64,000 nucleotides of DNA from Chachezhania antarctica (GTDB lineage Bacteria; Pseudomonadota; Alphaproteobacteria; Rhodobacterales; Rhodobacteraceae): assembly GCF_003646465.1 (NCBI RefSeq), contig NZ_QZEX01000005.1, positions 249,123-313,122 of the forward strand, given 5' to 3'. Positions 2,469 to 62,649 of the stretch are shown piece by piece (positions within the stretch are counted from its first letter, which is position 1; each line of letters begins with the position of its first letter). Both the position numbers and the translations under genes were made by a program. The notes under the pieces were generated by a model. It was not told the origin of the DNA, made no database searches, and saw nothing but the letters and a program-made list of their open reading frames with translations.

Positions 2469-3806
2469 CTACCAGTTGTCCTTGAACCATCGAACCGCGC
2501 GTTTGAGGGAGCGTCCGGACTGGCTGTCGAGCGGCATGTCGAAATCCCACCATTCGTCCTGCGGGTGCGCCGCGAACAGGCTGAGCCCCACGACGCCGGA
2601 AAATCCGGGCCCTGTCGCGGCTTGCGGCAGGCCGTGCACCCGCAGGGGCCGGCCCAGCCGCACCTGCTGGCCAAGGATCCGGCTGGCCAACCCGTCCAGC
2701 CCGGGGATCTGGCTGCCGCCGCCCGTCAGGACGATCTGCTGGCTGGGCAGATGATCGAAGCCCGCCGCGTCCAGGCAGGTGCGAACCTCTTCCAGGATCT
2801 CTTCCACCCGGGGCCGCATGATGCCGATCAGTTCCGCGCGGGAGACGGTGCGCCGGTCATGTTCCCAGTCGCCGGTCTGGCCGCCGATCTCGATCATGTC
2901 GCGGTCGTCCATGCCGGTCGCCTGCACGCCGCCGTAGAAGGTCTTGATCCGTTCCGCATTGGCCGCGGGAATGCCCAGCCCCATCGAGATGTCGCTTGTC
3001 ACATGCTCGCCGCCCATGCGGACGGTGTCGGCATAGATCATGTGCTTCTTCATGAAGATGGAAATGCTGGACGATCCGCCGCCCAGGTCGATGCAGGCCG
3101 CGCCCAGTTCCTGTTCGTCTTCCACCAGCGTCGAAATGCCGGACGCGTACGCCGACGAGGCGATTCCCGCCAGTTCCAGATCGCACCGCTTGATGCAGTG
3201 GACAAGGTTCTGGATCGCCACGTCATCGACCGTCAGCATGTGCATGTCGACGGCCAGCGTCTGGCCCATCTGCCCGCGCGGATCGTTCAGCCCCGACCGG
3301 TTGTCCAAGGCGAAGTTCACCGGCTGGGCGTGCAGCACCTCGCGCCGGTCGCCGTAATCGGGCACGTCGCAGGCGGCCAGAACGCGGGCGATCTCGTGCT
3401 CCGTCACCATCTGGTCCTGCAGTTCCACCTGCGCATCCAGCCCGTAGGACTTTGGCCGCGCGCCCGAGAAGCAGGCGATCACGTGATCGACGCGGACCTC
3501 GGCCATCTTCTGGGCCGCCTGCAGCGCCGTGCGGATCGCGCGCTCGGTCTCCTGCATCGCTGTCACTTCGCCGAAATGCACCCCGCGGGACCGGGTCGTC
3601 GCCGCCCCCACCACGCGGAACCCGGACTGGCCTGCCAGCGCGCCGATCTCGGCATCGGCTCTCGTGCGGGCCGATCCGTCGAAGCGCAGCACGAGGCAGG
3701 CGATCTTCGAGCTACCGACATCGAGAATGGCAATGACACCGCGTTGCAGCGCCTGGCGCCGCATCTGCCGCATGGCCCGTTGGGTTTGGTACAGGTCGTT
3801 CATCAT
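2469..3806 (-). CDS. ftsA: Cell division protein FtsA
   Basis: Actin-fold ATPase that tethers FtsZ to the membrane and recruits later divisome proteins. The phosphate-1 loop AILDVGSSKIACLV (about 26-39), the IDLGGGSSSISIF phosphate-2 segment (about 205-220) and the adenosine motif VLTGGGSQIPGL (about 368-379) are clear. The C-terminus ends in an amphipathic, basic and aromatic stretch RSLKRAVRWFKDNW, as expected for membrane targeting. The frame opens with two consecutive ATG codons (3801-3806); either could start. Three nt separate it from ftsQ, so the two are probably translated from one mRNA. Confidence 0.97.
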   Translation of the reverse strand: MMNDLYQTQRAMRQMRRQALQRGVIAILDVGSSKIACLVLRFDGSARTRADAEIGALAGQSGFRVVGAATTRSRGVHFGEVTAMQETERAIRTALQAAQKMAEVRVDHVIACFSGARPKSYGLDAQVELQDQMVTEHEIARVLAACDVPDYGDRREVLHAQPVNFALDNRSGLNDPRGQMGQTLAVDMHMLTVDDVAIQNLVHCIKRCDLELAGIASSAYASGISTLVEDEQELGAACIDLGGGSSSISIFMKKHMIYADTVRMGGEHVTSDISMGLGIPAANAERIKTFYGGVQATGMDDRDMIEIGGQTGDWEHDRRTVSRAELIGIMRPRVEEILEEVRTCLDAAGFDHLPSQQIVLTGGGSQIPGLDGLASRILGQQVRLGRPLRVHGLPQAATGPGFSGVVGLSLFAAHPQDEWWDFDMPLDSQSGRSLKRAVRWFKDNW

Positions 3807-19842: not shown

Positions 19843-20376
19843 CTAGTCCTCCCCGACGGCGTTGAGAAGTTCGCGGGGATCGAAACTGTCGGGCTGGTCG
19901 TCCAGCCAGTCCTCGATCTTGGAGACCTCCTCGGCCTCGTAGGTCTCGGGGTTCCAGATCTCGAACGTGGTGCCGGCACCGATGAAGAACGCCGTGTCGG
20001 TCAGCCCGATCTTCTGGCGCAGCTTCGCCGGCAGCACCAGGCGGCCGGTATCGTCGACGGATGTTGTGTGGATCTGCCCGTTATAGAGTCGTTCAAGGAA
20101 CTTGCGTTCCTGCCCGATGGGAAGCTTCTCGATCTTGGCATCGACCTCTTCGATGCCTTTCATCGTGTAGCATTGCAGGTACTTCCGGCGGTGATCGCCG
20201 TAGACGATCACGATCTCGGGGTTGGGAAGGGCTGCGTCATCACCTTCGGCCTTAACGGCCTGGTATTCGGGGTCGCCTTCTTCAAGCACACGGCGAAAGG
20301 ATGCGGGAATCGAAACCCGCCCCTTGCTGTCCACCTTGTGGTGGCTCTCGCCTCTGAACCTGAACCTGCGGCTCAA
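19843..20376 (-). CDS. mraZ: Transcriptional regulator MraZ
   Basis: DNA-binding repressor of the dcw cluster that forms a ring of swapped AbrB-like folds. Two D-x-x-x-R repeats are visible: VDSKGRVSIPASFRR (15-29) and VDDTGRLVLPAKLRQ (about 105-119). At 177 aa it is longer than the E. coli form. No ATG fits; a TTG at 20374-20376 preceded by AAGGGG gives the conserved N-terminus LSRRFRFRGESHHKVD, so translation may be deliberately weak. Likely binds the TGGGN boxes found about 300 nt upstream. Confidence 0.95.
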   Translation of the reverse strand: MSRRFRFRGESHHKVDSKGRVSIPASFRRVLEEGDPEYQAVKAEGDDAALPNPEIVIVYGDHRRKYLQCYTMKGIEEVDAKIEKLPIGQERKFLERLYNGQIHTTSVDDTGRLVLPAKLRQKIGLTDTAFFIGAGTTFEIWNPETYEAEEVSKIEDWLDDQPDSFDPRELLNAVGED

Positions 20377-20696: not shown

Positions 20697-20711
20697 CACC
20701 TTTTTATGGGA
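20677..20711. promoter_or_regulatory. Candidate MraZ boxes (TGGGN repeats)
   Basis: On the plus strand TGGGA (20677-20681), TGGGT (20687-20691) and TGGGA (20707-20711) lie on one 10-nt grid with one position skipped. TGGGN repeats with 5-nt spacers are the known binding pattern of MraZ. They overlap the candidate dcw promoter, as expected for autorepression. They are on the opposite strand to mraZ, which lowers certainty. Confidence 0.5.
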
Positions 20712-21448
20712 ATTTTCCGGAGCGGCGATGGGTCGAAGCGCTCTTTTCAGCGGAAAACTCGCCCGAAACCACCACATATAGCCTCAAGACCGAAAACCCT
20801 TGGCCAATGTAGAGAAATCATGGCGGCGGCGTGCTGTCCCATGAATTCCCCAAAAAATGGCGGCGACGCCCATCTTACCCGAATTTTCACCCTATGTTCC
20901 CCGATTTCCGGCACGAGCCGCGAACGCCCCGCGCGCGTACCATTCTATCCCATATTCGGAGTCCTGTCTCTGCATGCCGCGCGCAAAAGCGCGCCTTCGC
21001 AGGAATCACACCCGTCCTGGCCGACGGTGGCCCGACAGCCCGGACGCGAATCCACAGATCGTACCGCACCCGAACGAGTCGTCGGTCGCGCAAGAATCGG
21101 GATTTCGGTCGAACCGGGGCGAAACAGCCTGACACCCCTCAGGGAATGTCACGCGGGAGTGATGATGACGTTTGGGCAACGGGGCAGGTATCGCCCCGGA
21201 TTTCAGCGCAGCGCAAAAAAATTACGCATGAGCCCATGCACTTGCCGCATGGCAGCATTGCCGATCAAGGCGTTGTGCATCCGCAGCAATTACCGCATAT
21301 TCATCTCATCGAAACGCAAACGGGCGATCAAGCCCGGCGGTACAGGAAGACGGACCCAGAAGGGATCGCACTGTAAAAGGCCAGAGCAGGTCACCGTGAA
21401 GGATCGTAAGAAGACGGCGGCGGGCGGCCTGACAGCCCGCAGGAACAT
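20712..21448. other. Intergenic region without a recognised gene
   Basis: Over 700 nt between the mraZ control region and the CcsR-type hairpins. Several frames stay open, but the translations are Arg/Ser/Pro-rich, have no family features and no good ribosome site. A DUF1127 gene, the usual neighbour of CcsR RNAs, was looked for on the plus strand and not found. Confidence 0.5.
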
Positions 21449-21454
21449 ATGAAT

Positions 21455-21487
21455 CAGGTTCTCCTCTCCTCCTCCCTAGAGAACCTG
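21455..21487 (+). ncRNA. CcsR/cuckoo-type sRNA hairpin 1
   Basis: Perfect 9-bp stem CAGGTTCTC/GAGAACCTG (21455-21463 with 21479-21487) closing a 15-nt loop that contains CCTCCTCCC. An anti-Shine-Dalgarno CCUCCUCCC loop is the defining mark of CcsR ('cuckoo') RNAs of Rhodobacter and related alphaproteobacteria. Confidence 0.85.
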
Positions 21488-21493
21488 TTACTC

Positions 21494-21532
21494 GCGGCGG
21501 CATCCTCCTCCTCCCTGATGTCGCCGCTTTTT
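21494..21532 (+). ncRNA. CcsR/cuckoo-type sRNA hairpin 2
   Basis: 11-bp stem (21494-21504 with 21517-21527, one G-U pair) with 12-nt loop CTCCTCCTCCCT, followed by five T. It has the CcsR loop and also looks like a terminator, so RNA ends may form here. Confidence 0.85.
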
Positions 21533-21562
21533 ACAACGGCTCGGAAACGGGCCCAGGTTGCG

Positions 21563-21589
21563 CCGGGGATTTCTCCTCCCTCACCCCGG
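21563..21589 (+). ncRNA. CcsR/cuckoo-type sRNA hairpin 3
   Basis: 6-bp stem CCGGGG/CCCCGG (21563-21568 with 21584-21589) with a 15-nt loop carrying CTCCTCCC. It is the weakest member of the row, with a shorter stem and a slightly shorter pyrimidine motif. Confidence 0.75.
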
Positions 21590-21599
21590 TAGCATCTCG

Positions 21600-21634
21600 A
21601 AACGGCGGCCTCCTCCTCCCTTGGGCCGCCGTTT
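21600..21634 (+). ncRNA. CcsR/cuckoo-type sRNA hairpin 4
   Basis: 11-bp stem AAACGGCGGCC/GGCCGCCGTTT (21600-21610 with 21624-21634) with a 13-nt loop TCCTCCTCCCTTG. Last of the four; the stem ends in TTTCCC and may also serve as the array terminator. Confidence 0.85.
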
Positions 21635-21687
21635 CCCGTTTCGGGGGGCTTCCAGATTTTCAGATCATGCGCCCGGCCGTTGCCGCG

Positions 21688-21780
21688 GGGGCGCTGCCGC
21701 CGCACCCCCGGAGTATTCCGGGAAGAAAGTAAGGCACGATGTCCTTCTTCTCTTCCTCAATTACTCCCGCCCGGGGCGGA
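21688..21780. repeat. Palindromic intergenic repeat, family 2, copy A
   Basis: Two facing half-elements: CCCCCGGAGTATTCCGG with AAGAAAG (left, about 21705-21728) and TTCTTCTCTTCCTCAATTACTCC (right, about 21744-21766, quoted here only as position; core ATTACTCC). A GGGGGCGCTGC hairpin lies at the left end. It lies downstream of uvrD (minus) and downstream of the CcsR hairpins (plus). Confidence 0.75.
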
Positions 21781-21869
21781 CCAACGCGCAAGCGACACCT
21801 GCGCCCTGCCCATGAAAGCGCGCGCCCGGGCCACAGGCCCGGCGCCGAACACTCGCCGCAGAGCCTATG

Positions 21870-24206
21870 TCAGAACGGAATATCGTCGCTTCCCGTCACG
21901 AAGCGGGCGACCACCTTCTTGTGCCCTGCCTTCTCGAAATCGACGTCCAGCTTGTCGCCTTCGATCCCGGCGATCACGCCGTAGCCGAACTTCTGGTGAA
22001 ACACGCGCTGACCCATGGTGAAGGACGACACCGCTTCAAGGTCGATCACCATGTTGCGGCTTTCCTTGGGCTGCGACGTGCCCCGCTGCGCCGACCGCGC
22101 CTGCAGGCGGCGCCAGCCGGGCGAGTTGTAGACATTGGCCTCGGCCGCGCGCGTCTCGACGCCACCACCCCCGGCTTGCTGACCGCCCCCGTAAAGGCCC
22201 GGCGGCGTCAAGACGTCCACGTGATCGGCCGGCAGCTCATCGATGAACCGCGACGGCATCGACGATTGCCACTGACCGAATACCCGCCGGTTCGCGGCAA
22301 AGGAAATCGTGCAGACCTCCTCCGCCCGCGTGATCCCGACATAGGCCAGCCGGCGTTCTTCCTCGAGCCCCTTGAGCCCGGTCTCGTCCATCGAGCGCTG
22401 TGACGGGAAAAGCCCGTCCTCCCAGCCCGGCAGGAAGACGGCGGGAAACTCCAGCCCCTTGGCCGCGTGCAGGGTCATGATCGACACTTTCGCGCCGTCG
22501 CCTTCGGCCTCGTTGTCCATGATCAGCGCGACGTGCTCCAGAAACCCTTCCAGGTTCTCGAAGCTCTCCAGCGCCTTGACCAGTTCCTTCAGGTTCTCCA
22601 GCCGCCCCGGCGCTTCCGGCGTCTTGTCGTTCTGCCACATCGCCGTGTAACCGCTTTCATCGAGGACTTGCCCGGCCAGGTCCACGTGCGAGACATCCGC
22701 CTCCCCCGTCATCCGGCCCCAGCGTGCAAGATCCTCGACCAAGGTACGCAGCTGGCCCGCCCCCTTGCCCTTGATCGCGCCCTCCTCGATGGCGATCCGC
22801 GCGCCTTCGATCAGGTTCACGCCATGCTGGCGCGCCGTCACCTGGATGGTCTGCTGCGCCTTGTCGCCCAGGCCCCGCTTGGGCGTGTTCACGATCCGCT
22901 CGAACGCCAGATCGTCGTCGGGGCTGACCACCAGCCGGAAATAGGCCATCGCATCGCGGATCTCGAGCCGTTCGTAGAAGCGCGGGCCGCCGATCACCTT
23001 GTAGGGCAGACCGATCGTCAGGAACCGGTCTTCGAAGGCACGCATCTGGTGCGAGGCGCGGACAAGGATCGCCATCTCGTCCAGGTCGATGGGCCGGATC
23101 CCGCGGGTGCCCTTCTGAATCGACTCGATCTCGTCGCCCACCCAGCGAGCTTCTTCCTCGCCATCCCAATGCCCGATCAGGCGGACCTTCTCACCCTCGC
23201 TCGCATCGGTCCAGAGCGTCTTGCCCAGCCGCTTTTCATTGGCCGCGATCACGCCCCCGGCCGCGGCGAGGATATGGGGGGTCGAGCGATAATTCTGTTC
23301 CAGCCGCACCACGTGGGCGCCCGGAAAATCCTTTTCAAACCGCAGGATGTTGCCCACCTCGGCGCCGCGCCAGCCATAGATCGACTGGTCGTCGTCGCCC
23401 ACGCAGCAGATGTTCTTGTGCGTCGCCGCAAGAAGCCGCAGCCACATGTACTGCGCGACGTTGGTATCCTGATATTCGTCGACAAGGATATAGCGGAACC
23501 AGCGGCGATACTGGTCCAGCACGTCCTCGTGCGTCTGGAAGATATGGATCACATGAAGCAGCAGATCCCCGAAATCGACCGCGTTGAGCTCCTTCAGGCG
23601 GGCCTGGTACTGGGCGTAAAGCTCCGTCCCGCGGTGATTGTAGGCGCCGGCCTCCGCCACGGGGACCTTTTCCGGCGTCCAGGCGCGGTTCTTCCAATTG
23701 TCAATGATTCCGGCCAGCATCCGTGCGGGCCAGCGCTTGTCGTCGATGTTCTCGGCCCGGACCAGCTGTTTCAGCAGGCGCAGCTGGTCGTCGGTATCGA
23801 GAATGGTGAAGTTCGACTTCAGGCCCACCAGTTCGGCGTGGCGCCGCAGGAGCTTCACGCAGATGGAATGGAACGTGCCCAGCCAGGGCATCCCTTCCAC
23901 GGGCTGGCCCAGCATGTCGGCCACGCGCACCTTCATCTCGCGCGCGGCCTTGTTGGTGAAGGTCACGGCCAGGATCTCGTTCGGGCGCGCGGTGCCGGTG
24001 TTCATCAGGTGCACGATCCGCGCCGTCAGCGCCCGGGTCTTTCCCGTGCCGGCACCCGCCAGCATAAGGACCGGACCGTCGAGGATCTCGACCGCCTGGC
24101 GCTGCTCGTCGTTCAGCCCGTCAAGATAGGGCGTGGGCCGCGCAGCCATGGCGCGGGCGGAAAGGGACGCGGCTTCGAAGGCGTCCATATCGTCGAAACT
24201 GCTCAT
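21870..24206 (-). CDS. uvrD: UvrD/PcrA-type superfamily 1 DNA helicase
   Basis: 3'-5' ATP-dependent helicase of nucleotide-excision and mismatch repair. 778 aa with the SF1A motifs: Q motif LNDEQRQAV, Walker A AGAGTGKTRAL (50-60), VTFTNKAAREM, DEYQDTN (Walker B), GDDDQSIYGWRGA, LEQNYRS, TLHAAKGLEFPAVF and EEERRLAYVGITRA. The C-terminus ends in a Tudor-like domain (GQRVFHQKFGYGVIAGIEGD) typical of PcrA/UvrD. A LexA-type box sits about 40 nt before the start, so SOS control is expected. Confidence 0.97.
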   Translation of the reverse strand: MSSFDDMDAFEAASLSARAMAARPTPYLDGLNDEQRQAVEILDGPVLMLAGAGTGKTRALTARIVHLMNTGTARPNEILAVTFTNKAAREMKVRVADMLGQPVEGMPWLGTFHSICVKLLRRHAELVGLKSNFTILDTDDQLRLLKQLVRAENIDDKRWPARMLAGIIDNWKNRAWTPEKVPVAEAGAYNHRGTELYAQYQARLKELNAVDFGDLLLHVIHIFQTHEDVLDQYRRWFRYILVDEYQDTNVAQYMWLRLLAATHKNICCVGDDDQSIYGWRGAEVGNILRFEKDFPGAHVVRLEQNYRSTPHILAAAGGVIAANEKRLGKTLWTDASEGEKVRLIGHWDGEEEARWVGDEIESIQKGTRGIRPIDLDEMAILVRASHQMRAFEDRFLTIGLPYKVIGGPRFYERLEIRDAMAYFRLVVSPDDDLAFERIVNTPKRGLGDKAQQTIQVTARQHGVNLIEGARIAIEEGAIKGKGAGQLRTLVEDLARWGRMTGEADVSHVDLAGQVLDESGYTAMWQNDKTPEAPGRLENLKELVKALESFENLEGFLEHVALIMDNEAEGDGAKVSIMTLHAAKGLEFPAVFLPGWEDGLFPSQRSMDETGLKGLEEERRLAYVGITRAEEVCTISFAANRRVFGQWQSSMPSRFIDELPADHVDVLTPPGLYGGGQQAGGGGVETRAAEANVYNSPGWRRLQARSAQRGTSQPKESRNMVIDLEAVSSFTMGQRVFHQKFGYGVIAGIEGDKLDVDFEKAGHKKVVARFVTGSDDIPF

Positions 24207-61269: not shown

Positions 61270-61830
61270 CTACATCTTAGACAGTTTCGACTGCAGGTCG
61301 GCCAGCTGCTTCTTGATCTCGTCCAGCTCTTCGCTTTCGCTACCGGCCGGCCGTGATCCGTCCCCTTCCCGGCCAGGGCCCGACATGCCCCCCGGGAAGC
61401 CGCCCGTCATCGCCTTCAGCCATGCCTCCTGCTGCGCCTTCATCGCCTCGAAGCCCGGCAGCGTCGTCATCGGATTGATGACCTGCATGTTCTCCATCAT
61501 CTTCGACTGGCTGTCGCGCAGCATCTCGAACGAGCTTTGCAGGAACTGCGGCATCATCCCGCCGCCCGGCACCATGTAGCTGCGCACCAGATCCATCAGC
61601 ACGTTCACCGGCAGGATGTTTTCCCCACGGCTTTCGTGTTCGGCGATGATCTGGAGCAGGTATTGCCGGGTCAGATCGTCCCCGGACTTCAGATCGACAA
61701 TCTGGACTTCACGACCCGCGCGGATGAATCCCGCGATGTCCTCCAGGGTCACGTAGTCGCTTGTTTCGGTATTGTAGAGCCGGCGGCTCGCATATCGTTT
61801 TATCAGAAGCGGCTTGTCGCCTTCCGCCAT
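61270..61830 (-). CDS. phaR: Polyhydroxyalkanoate synthesis repressor PhaR
   Basis: 186 aa. The N-terminal PHB accumulation regulatory domain binds DNA and polymer: LLIKRYASRRLYNTETSDYV and LEDIAGFIRAGREVQIVD, followed by GDDLTRQYLLQII and the middle QSSFEMLRDSQ region. The acidic C-terminal helix is variable. PhaR frees phasin genes when PHA granules appear. Palindromes matching its known TGC/GCA preference lie upstream of phaP and of phaR itself. Ribosome site GGGGAGGGA. Confidence 0.96.
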   Translation of the reverse strand: MAEGDKPLLIKRYASRRLYNTETSDYVTLEDIAGFIRAGREVQIVDLKSGDDLTRQYLLQIIAEHESRGENILPVNVLMDLVRSYMVPGGGMMPQFLQSSFEMLRDSQSKMMENMQVINPMTTLPGFEAMKAQQEAWLKAMTGGFPGGMSGPGREGDGSRPAGSESEELDEIKKQLADLQSKLSKM

Positions 61831-61976: not shown

Positions 61977-62002
61977 AAGGGCAGGCCTTTCGGCCTGCCC
62001 TT
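61977..62002 (-). terminator. Terminator after phaP
   Basis: 11-bp perfect stem AAGGGCAGGCC/GGCCTGCCCTT with a 4-nt loop, 75 nt after the phaP stop. A clean T-run is missing, but the stem is very stable. Confidence 0.75.
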
Positions 62003-62076
62003 GTCCGAGATTGCACCGGATGGGAGGAGAGGAGGTGCAGATCGTCGAACCTCGAACCTTCAGCGGGCCGACAGGC

Positions 62077-62520
62077 TTACTGAGTGGTCGCTTTCTTGGC
62101 AGCGTCGGTCATGTCCGACGTCGCTTTCTTCATCGCGGTGGAGGCATCTTCGGCAACGTCCTTGCCGGCAGCCATCATCACTTCGACGGTGTCCATCTGG
62201 ACCTTTTTCGCGATCTCGGCGAAGGCGGCCATGTTTTCGGCGGCCACTTCGGCAGAAGCCGATGCGAAATCGGTCATGGCCTTGGCGTAATCGGCCGGCT
62301 CTTCCTTGGCTTTCGCCATGTCGGAGAGCTTCGCCAGCGTGTCCTGGGTCCACTTCGACGTCAGCTGGGCCGACTTGCCGGCGGCGTCCAGAGCGATCGA
62401 GGACAGTTTTTCGTTCAGGTCGGCCTGAGTCTTGAACGCTTCTTCCATCGACGAGGTGTCGATCGGGAATGCGCCCATCATGTCTTTCATCATGGCCGAG
62501 AAGTCTTGCGTATTGGTCAT
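62077..62520 (-). CDS. phaP: Phasin
   Basis: 147-aa amphipathic helical protein coating PHA granules. Rich in Ala, Met, Lys and Asp with regular heptads (SMEEAFKTQADLNEKLSSIA, DFASASAEVAAENMAAFAEI); ends in a Lys/Ala/Thr tail as in many phasins. Start at 62520 with GAAAGGAAT upstream. It lies between phaC and phaR, all on the minus strand, with its own promoter and PhaR-type operators. Confidence 0.94.
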   Translation of the reverse strand: MTNTQDFSAMMKDMMGAFPIDTSSMEEAFKTQADLNEKLSSIALDAAGKSAQLTSKWTQDTLAKLSDMAKAKEEPADYAKAMTDFASASAEVAAENMAAFAEIAKKVQMDTVEVMMAAGKDVAEDASTAMKKATSDMTDAAKKATTQ

Positions 62521-62572: not shown

Positions 62573-62601
62573 TATATGCATGCTGCGGCGCAGCATTTCA
62601 A
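62573..62601 (-). promoter_or_regulatory. phaP promoter with PhaR-like operator in the spacer
   Basis: On the minus strand TTGAAA (62596-62601), exactly 17 nt, CATATA (62573-62578). The spacer is almost filled by the palindrome ATGCTGCGCCGCAGCAT (62580-62596), matching the TGC/GCA sites known for PhaR. A bound repressor would block RNA polymerase. Confidence 0.75.
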
Positions 62602-62607
62602 GAAAAA

Positions 62608-62624
62608 TTTGCTGCGCCGCAGAA
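62608..62624. promoter_or_regulatory. Second PhaR-like palindrome upstream of phaP
   Basis: TTTGCTGCG-C-CGCAGAA, just upstream of the -35 and 28 nt (centre to centre) from the first palindrome, so cooperative binding is possible. Confidence 0.6.
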
Positions 62625-62649
62625 AGAGCGTTGATTTGACTATATATTT

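Follow-up and report, generated by a model that had tools for sequence, protein, structure and literature searches.

The 64-kb stretch of DNA analysed here (the window) carries an array of hairpins which probably encodes Shine-Dalgarno (SD)-blocking RNAs, controlled by a PhaR-type, PHB-sensing operator, at a locus from which the DUF1127 gene ccaF1 has been lost. By direct computation we found the hairpins, their likeness to a known RNA family, their locus, the missing gene, the retained operator, and a binding-site matrix that this operator shares with phaP. Cuckoo RNAs, hairpin RNAs that mimic the tail by which the ribosome binds mRNA, are widespread in alphaproteobacteria and the signals that induce them are only partly known. 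The operator common to phaP, phaR, and the array offers one testable signal, namely PHB status through PhaR. Unusually, the window locus has kept the promoter region of the DUF1127 gene but not the gene itself, and DUF1127-less loci of this kind are a natural test of whether the DUF1127 protein is needed.

Fold, pairing, and family of the hairpin array

Four plus-strand hairpins lie at 21455-21635 of the window, each with CTCCTCCC in its loop (Table 1). The minimum free energy (MFE) fold of 21449-21640 has an energy of -84.4 kcal/mol and a z of -7.44, and none of 200 dinucleotide shuffles was equally stable. An earlier note on this DNA had described four consecutive plus-strand inverted repeats with near-identical loops, hairpin 3 differing from the rest, and the fold bears out both points: CCTCCTCCC is carried by HP1, HP2, and HP4, and TTCTCCTCCC by HP3 alone. 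A small fifth stem, free of the motif, sits between HP2 and HP3 at 21538-21553. Within the window CTCCTCCC occurs four times on the plus strand, always in the array, and has a single minus-strand copy at 62022. A terminator scan found no terminator-like site 3' of HP4, where a T run is also absent.

Table 1. Positions of the array, its leader, and related features in the window
Feature	Position	Strand	Basis
mraZ, beside dcw genes, divergent, syntenic anchor	19843-20376	-	earlier note and own ORF reading
Operator box 1, ACTTGCCGCATGGCAGCATTG, core CCGCATGGCAG, one mismatch to CTGCNNNGCAG	21240-21260	+	4th-best phaP-matrix site
Putative promoter TTGTGC-17 nt-CATATT	21273-21301	+	likeness with relatives
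Operator box 2, TGC-ATCC-GCAG, ~30 nt after box 1, overlaps putative -35	21275-21286	+	two-box pattern
Leader without recognisable DUF1127 ORF	21302-21454	+	Pfam and profile searches
CcsR-like unit A	21449-21532	+	Rfam ar14 43.7 bits, CcsR1 41.6 bits
Hairpin 1 (HP1), unit A, anti-SD loop CCTCCTCCC	21455-21487	+	MFE fold, Rfam match
Hairpin 2 (HP2), unit A, then TTTTT	21494-21532 (stem 21494-21527)	+	MFE fold, Rfam match
Hairpin 3 (HP3), unit B, loop TTCTCCTCCC	21559-21594 (longest form 21556-21597)	+	MFE fold
Hairpin 4 (HP4), unit B, loop CCTCCTCCC	21599-21635	+	MFE fold
UvrD-type helicase gene, convergent with array, syntenic anchor	21870-24206	-	earlier note and own ORF reading
phaR, PHB-responsive regulator	61270-61830	-	Pfam PF07879, E 2.5e-27
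Terminator-like hairpin following the phaP 3'-UTR hairpin	61979-62000	-	fold
phaP 3'-UTR hairpin, anti-SD loop CCTCCTCTCCTCCC	62012-62039	-	fold; just after phaP stop
phaP phasin gene	62077-62520	-	search and Pfam
Two CTGCNNNGCAG boxes, phaP promoter	62578-62627	-	best two matrix sites of window

To compare the locus among relatives, we searched 149 genomes of the family for the UvrD C-terminus and obtained a match in 145, the window's genome included. The sample comprised 120 stretches, from the same-genus genome G001 and from 119 of the 144 other matching genomes, those left out being mainly the weakest matches. Most stretches reach ~4 kb beyond uvrD, and three (L091, L114, L129) are longer because of a CcsR match there. 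With the window this gave 121 loci, of which 113 are 4000 nt or longer. In 79 of the 121, two or more hairpins form a cluster oriented towards uvrD; in the other 42 no cluster was found within the fetched stretch.

The stems of the arrays are variable in sequence yet held by pairing. When all CTCCTCCC sites on the array strand of the 121 loci were taken without regard to stems, 496 of 533 (93.1%) reached a stem score of 15, and the opposite strand contains a single site, which has no stem. Within the 79 arrays, which were picked by at least two stems so that the figure is partly by construction, 94.4% of 515 sites reach the score, with 423 distinct 5' arms; the count of 533 sites is unselected. 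In the comparison sets the proportion was 34.3% after arms were swapped between sites and 34.9% for 43 CTCCTCC sites outside arrays. The unselected count supports the proposal that compensated stems indicate selection on RNA. We also looked for a loss of stem pairing in related genomes, the observation that would speak against this proposal; pairing was retained, and the claim stands.

In G001 (L070), all four hairpins fold in both of its array copies. HP1 and HP2 of copy 2 each have one pair changed on both sides; for HP3, the alignment shows two broken or gapped pairs per copy. Six seemingly broken HP4 pairs per copy were dismissed as alignment artefacts, the register being off by one base on our reading of the separate folds. 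In this genome the promoter-plus-array unit is duplicated in tandem, the copies lying ~480 nt apart, each with its own leader and without a DUF1127 gene. HP3 and HP4 do not differ between the copies, which points to a recent duplication or to gene conversion.

A cmscan of 20700-21900 matched unit A to ar14 (RF02344; 21449-21532, 43.7 bits, E 1.8e-6, gathering score 58.8) and to CcsR1 (RF02791; 21451-21532, 41.6 bits, E 1.7e-8, gathering score 65.3), and unit B to ar14 (21553-21661, 34.8 bits, E 1.7e-4), also under the gathering score. The covariance search that had been proposed for this array therefore gave a divided answer, with low E-values for both models on the one side and scores below both curated gathering scores on the other. 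The default-threshold cmscan of the whole window listed no match. Another locus of the same genome exceeds the ar14 gathering score (68.9 bits). At an E of 0.001, CcsR1 matched 124 of the 149 family genomes, seven of them over the gathering score, and one of 14 control genomes (Thermus composti), below it. We rejected 6C RNA (RF01066) and ar7 as identities of the array because their Rfam matches are weaker than those of ar14 and CcsR. 6C RNA resembles the array in having two hairpins with C-rich loops and matches unit B weakly (32.7 bits against a gathering score of 47), but the consensus loop of its model is C only and ar14 fits the array better. The assignment of the array to the non-coding RNA genes of the cuckoo/alpha-r14/CcsR type is well supported, and the earlier note was right about the family, the plus strand, and the conserved anti-SD loops.

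The best Rfam match by bits belongs to the family of alpha-r14/NfeR1 (Smr14C2) of Sinorhizobium (RF02344), which likewise has tandem anti-SD hairpins with variable stems. According to passages of PMC10746234, NfeR1 differs in its three hairpins, its sigma-70 promoter, the binding of LsrB and NtrC, and its locus.

The four hairpins had been equated with four CcsR RNAs. We rejected this reading because the CcsR1 model spans two hairpins, and one CcsR unit is thus two hairpins. Two stem loops are described for transcript RS0680a of R. sphaeroides (PMC3927594, section 2.7), and in Cereibacter johrii (L222) eight hairpins follow the DUF1127 gene, which fits four CcsR RNAs. Because the CcsR RNA is a two-hairpin module, the window array consists of two CcsR-like units (HP1+HP2 and HP3+HP4). 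The largest cluster per locus ranges from 2 to 14 hairpins; the cluster of 14 is found in G050, and the DUF1127 protein of C. johrii is 99% identical to that of this genome.

The mraZ-uvrD locus and its missing DUF1127 gene

The position between mraZ and uvrD had been taken as a departure from loci of the R. sphaeroides type. It proved instead to be the usual site, as the 79 clusters near uvrD indicate. We saw mraZ in 53 loci, and in 50 of these the cluster lies between mraZ and uvrD, so this position is normal for the family. The gene order in C. johrii is mraZ, ccaF1, eight hairpins, uvrD.

In 64 of the 79 loci the array has a DUF1127 ORF no more than 150 nt upstream. Among the 15 loci without such an ORF, 13 clearly lack DUF1127, the window and G001 among them; in L187 (G116) the gene is further down, past hairpins, and the L188 stretch ends 99 nt upstream of the array. 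The order in L187 (oriented 2996-3539) is rearranged, with the DUF1127 gene (3230-3442) between the two-hairpin cluster and another single hairpin.

The profile used for DUF1127 was built from four proteins of this genome and then rebuilt from its matches. At the window locus, none of six ORFs had a Pfam match and the profile search was negative, confirming that no DUF1127 gene precedes the array; we found none on this contig. A DUF1127 gene hidden in the ORF-free region was rejected after inspection of Pfam matches, profile matches, and ORFs. Four DUF1127 genes are present elsewhere in the genome, so a partner may act in trans.

In two relatives, the interval between operator and array holds what we read from the translations as a degenerate (L103, G136) and a truncated (L110, G132) DUF1127-like ORF; these are apparent intermediates of gene loss. 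In a tree of MraZ plus the UvrD tail (43 loci, midpoint root), the DUF1127-less loci are scattered over several branches, which suggests that ccaF1 was lost repeatedly, the resolution of the tree being too low for a count. The absence at the window locus is best read as a secondary loss that left the promoter region behind.

Like CcsR1-4 of R. sphaeroides (RF02791; ccaF1-CcsR, the CIN1 locus), the window array has two-hairpin units with CCUCCUCCC loops, the mraZ-uvrD neighbourhood (by way of C. johrii), and an upstream operator/promoter element. It differs in lacking ccaF1/DUF1127, in having two units and not four, and in scoring below the Rfam gathering score. Of the features of CIN1, the mraZ-uvrD position and the leader element of relatives are present at the window, and the DUF1127 gene upstream is absent. 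Because this gene was tested for and is absent, we file the array outside the CIN1 loci, as an array of the cuckoo/alpha-r14 type whose site was formerly a CIN1 locus.

The tandem operator and its likeness to PhaR sites

The typical leader element of the arrays is TATGCAnnTGCTGCATAGCAGCATTG, ~12 nt, ATTGTGCAnnTGCAGCA, and then a -10-like box. A 15-nt palindrome with at most three mismatches is found in 71 of 79 leaders versus 2 of 75 control stretches taken 600 nt further up, the two-box pattern in 63 of 79 array loci versus none of 75 controls, and the strict form CTGCN3-4GCAG in 46 of 79 leaders versus 3 of 75 controls. Across the genome, the bare tandem pattern shows no enrichment (33 matches versus 43 in the reversed control). 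A sigma-70 consensus scan found no promoter at the array leader of the window.

In a further set of 80 named loci, in which some genomes have several loci and some also belong to the 121-locus sample, the palindrome with at most three mismatches precedes the DUF1127 gene in the 45 best-ranked (L222-L266; a raw count) and occurs in 7 of the remaining 35, mostly Rhizobiales including Phyllobacterium; it is absent from L267 (Cognatishimia). Ten arrays were taken as lying away from uvrD, and among these the two-box element is present in seven and a DUF1127 gene in six; one of the ten, L063, is ~4 kb from uvrD, and others may be the uvrD locus split by contig ends. At the genome's two other ar14 loci (C4, C17), the distance from the operator to the first loop motif is 72 and 80 nt. 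These two loci are stand-alone cuckoo arrays (L001, 1444-1630; L002, 1540-1665), each with a tandem PhaR-like operator, and upstream of both no DUF1127 gene was found. The only other match in the genome to the extended box 1 pattern (L191; G000 C47:22870) lies ~420 nt before a gene for an alanine/lysine/proline-rich protein, which on our reading resembles a histone-like granule protein.

The window itself contains phaR and phaP, and from our reading of the ORF phaC adjoins them. The PhaR site of R. sphaeroides is given as CTGCNNNGCAG in passages of PMC12542648. In the phaP promoters of relatives such boxes are often paired, ~27-30 nt apart; among 42 phaP upstream regions, 41 have at least one box and 29 at least two. 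We built a matrix from 70 sites in these 42 promoters, using no cuckoo leader. With this matrix, the best site of the whole fetched locus falls in the 520-nt leader for 70 of the 79 loci, where 9.6 were expected, and the median best score is 16.4 in leaders versus -6.3 in controls. The top sites of the window are phaP (27.0), phaP (26.8), phaR (15.1), and the array leader (10.7), followed by a site at 5.1. The score of 10.7 compares with a training median of 27.8, the core CCGCATGGCAG having one mismatch. Because the window's phaP sites had been in the first training set, we rebuilt the matrix without the own genus (66 sites, 40 promoters); the same four sites came out on top in the same order, and the leader was again best in 70 of 79 loci. 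At the centre of box 1, the leaders usually have ATA or ATG (40 of 49 strict sites), whereas phaP sites have purine-N-pyrimidine, as does box 1 of the genome's two other ar14 loci. Judged from these sequence matches, PhaR control of the array is likely.

Box 2 of L001 and the operator of S. meliloti mmgR have a common core, TGCACCGCAGCATT, and PMC12542648 lists the mmgR operator as efficiently bound by PhaR. MmgR (alpha-r8) is like the array RNAs in being a small RNA with an anti-SD loop and, as described in parts of PMC12542648 and PMC7143759, a promoter bound by PhaR/AniA. It differs in belonging to another RNA family and in having no tandem array of CCUCCUCCC hairpins.

In S. meliloti, SMc02051 has listed PhaR sites at 1667000-1666980, and NfeR1 (1667613-1667492) is encoded ~490 nt upstream of them on that strand (PMC12542648, PMC7143759); tables of these two papers show SMc02051 rising strongly without PhaR. 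A PhaR link is possible at this rhizobial cuckoo locus too. Passages of PMC12218461 report that S. meliloti phaP1 and DUF1127 genes are induced together by tetracycline, and in passages of PMC9230146 PhaR, phasin, and DUF1127 all appear but in separate places. A literature search covering titles, the starts of abstracts, and passages, with the neighbourhood lists of cuckoo-family, CcsR, and CcaF1 papers outside its scope, found no publication that joins PhaR or phaP with CcsR, NfeR1, or cuckoo RNAs, a result that leaves absence from print unproven.

Proposed regulation, candidate targets, and alternatives

We propose that the locus derives from the mraZ-operator/promoter-ccaF1-CcsR-uvrD arrangement common in Rhodobacteraceae and that, ccaF1 having been lost, the old ccaF1 promoter would now drive the RNAs directly. 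A single transcript from ~21308 would carry the two two-hairpin units and could be processed into them. Their exposed CCUCCUCCC loops would pair with the purine-rich Shine-Dalgarno sequence GGGAGGAG of mRNAs and block the start of translation. Stress induction and SD pairing of the putative array RNAs are plausible, and passages of PMC10746234 and PMC7143759 report an anti-SD function for relatives. Because the tandem TGC-N3/4-GCA operator resembles that of phaP, we propose PhaR, the PHB-responsive repressor, as the regulator which would hold the array down until PHB lifts the repression. Carbon storage would then raise the RNAs, and predicted target mRNAs for uptake and acyl-CoA use would be turned down.

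The arrangement GGGAGGAG-N3-10-ATG occurs 47 times in the genome versus 7 times in the reversed control; at least three of the 47 are counted twice by way of a second ATG, and two are antisense of arrays (C45:270623, C17:10259). The loci of the first 30 sites yielded 24 ORFs of at least 60 aa (one site twice), of which 20 were submitted to Pfam and 19 had a match, and the following classes are a descriptive list from these 30 sites. The candidate targets include an enoyl-CoA hydratase, an acyl-CoA dehydrogenase, a thiolase, two AMP-binding enzymes, and a CoA ligase, as well as two short-chain dehydrogenases, four solute-binding proteins, and an FGGY kinase. The others are a histidine-kinase-like ATPase, a beta-lactamase-fold protein, an Oxidored_q2 subunit, a methyltransferase, a molybdopterin-binding fragment, and an HbpS-like protein. 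Transport targets are reported for NfeR1 in parts of PMC7143759.

The strongest competitor to PhaR control is a plain CcsR/cuckoo array under RpoHI/RpoHII only, in which the TGC/GCA boxes would serve another regulator, such as a LysR protein of the LsrB/OxyR kind, and be unrelated to PHB. An RpoHI/RpoHII promoter is named for R. sphaeroides ccaF1-CcsR in a figure legend of PMC10253847, PMC10746234 describes LsrB and NtrC binding to the promoter of S. meliloti NfeR1, and the centre of box 1 is systematically unlike the phaP sites. We nonetheless regard this explanation as rather unlikely, for the phaP matrix has its best site in the leader at 70 of 79 loci, and within the window only phaP and phaR sites outscore the fourth-ranked array; box 1 of the genome's two further ar14 loci has a purine-N-pyrimidine centre, and one box 2 has the mmgR core. 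Moreover, control by RpoH and control by PhaR are mutually compatible.

The hairpins might also act mainly as sponges or decoys, for DUF1127 proteins of the CcaF1 type or for free 30S subunits, and not as mRNA-specific repressors. Such a role would suit the abundance of like loops within an array, the largest cluster of a locus having 2 to 14 hairpins, and the four other DUF1127 genes of the genome, but arrays persist in the 13 loci clearly without a neighbouring DUF1127 gene, and PMC7143759 reports genetic confirmation that NfeR1 silences some mRNA targets through its loops. We consider this role improbable. Even less credit is due to the idea that the hairpins are terminators or DNA repeats of the convergent mraZ/uvrD region with no RNA function. 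The array does converge with uvrD and a T run follows HP2, but the loop is conserved on one strand only (533 sites versus 1), the stems vary with pairing kept, the same module occurs elsewhere with its own operator, and HP4 has no T run, all of which makes a purely structural origin very hard to believe.

Returning to SD-blocking RNAs under PhaR, a broader form of this reading is tentative, and we would put it at slightly below an even chance. In Rhodobacteraceae, PhaR may control, throughout the family, a set of anti-SD RNAs comprising the ccaF1-CcsR operon, stand-alone arrays, and a conserved hairpin in the phasin 3' UTR. Storage would then be tied to translational silencing of genes for uptake and acyl-CoA use, and the arrays may be viable without an RNA-binding protein partner.

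The only CTCCTCCC of the window outside the array lies within the phaP 3'-UTR hairpin. From 100 phasin loci we kept the 68 with a PhaP C-terminal match (the 32 dropped without it include many short fragments or other phasins), and these provided 62 distinct 3' UTRs of sufficient length. In their first 90 nt, CTCCTCCC is present in 38 of 62 (0.5% in shuffles) and TCCTCCC or CTCCTCC in 49 of 62 (2.6% in shuffles). In 47 of 62 the MFE fold places the motif in the loop of a hairpin, a few of these UTRs having only CCTCC or CCCTCCC. These results suggest that the mRNA of a storage-granule protein also delivers an anti-SD RNA. As a known Rfam family this hairpin was rejected, since no match reaches the gathering score; the matches with the lowest E were CC3552 (21.5 bits, gathering score 50) and the molybdenum riboswitch (16.6 bits, gathering score 36). 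In two loci (L360 and L379), the terminator-like hairpin that follows the phaP 3'-UTR hairpin has an anti-SD loop as well.
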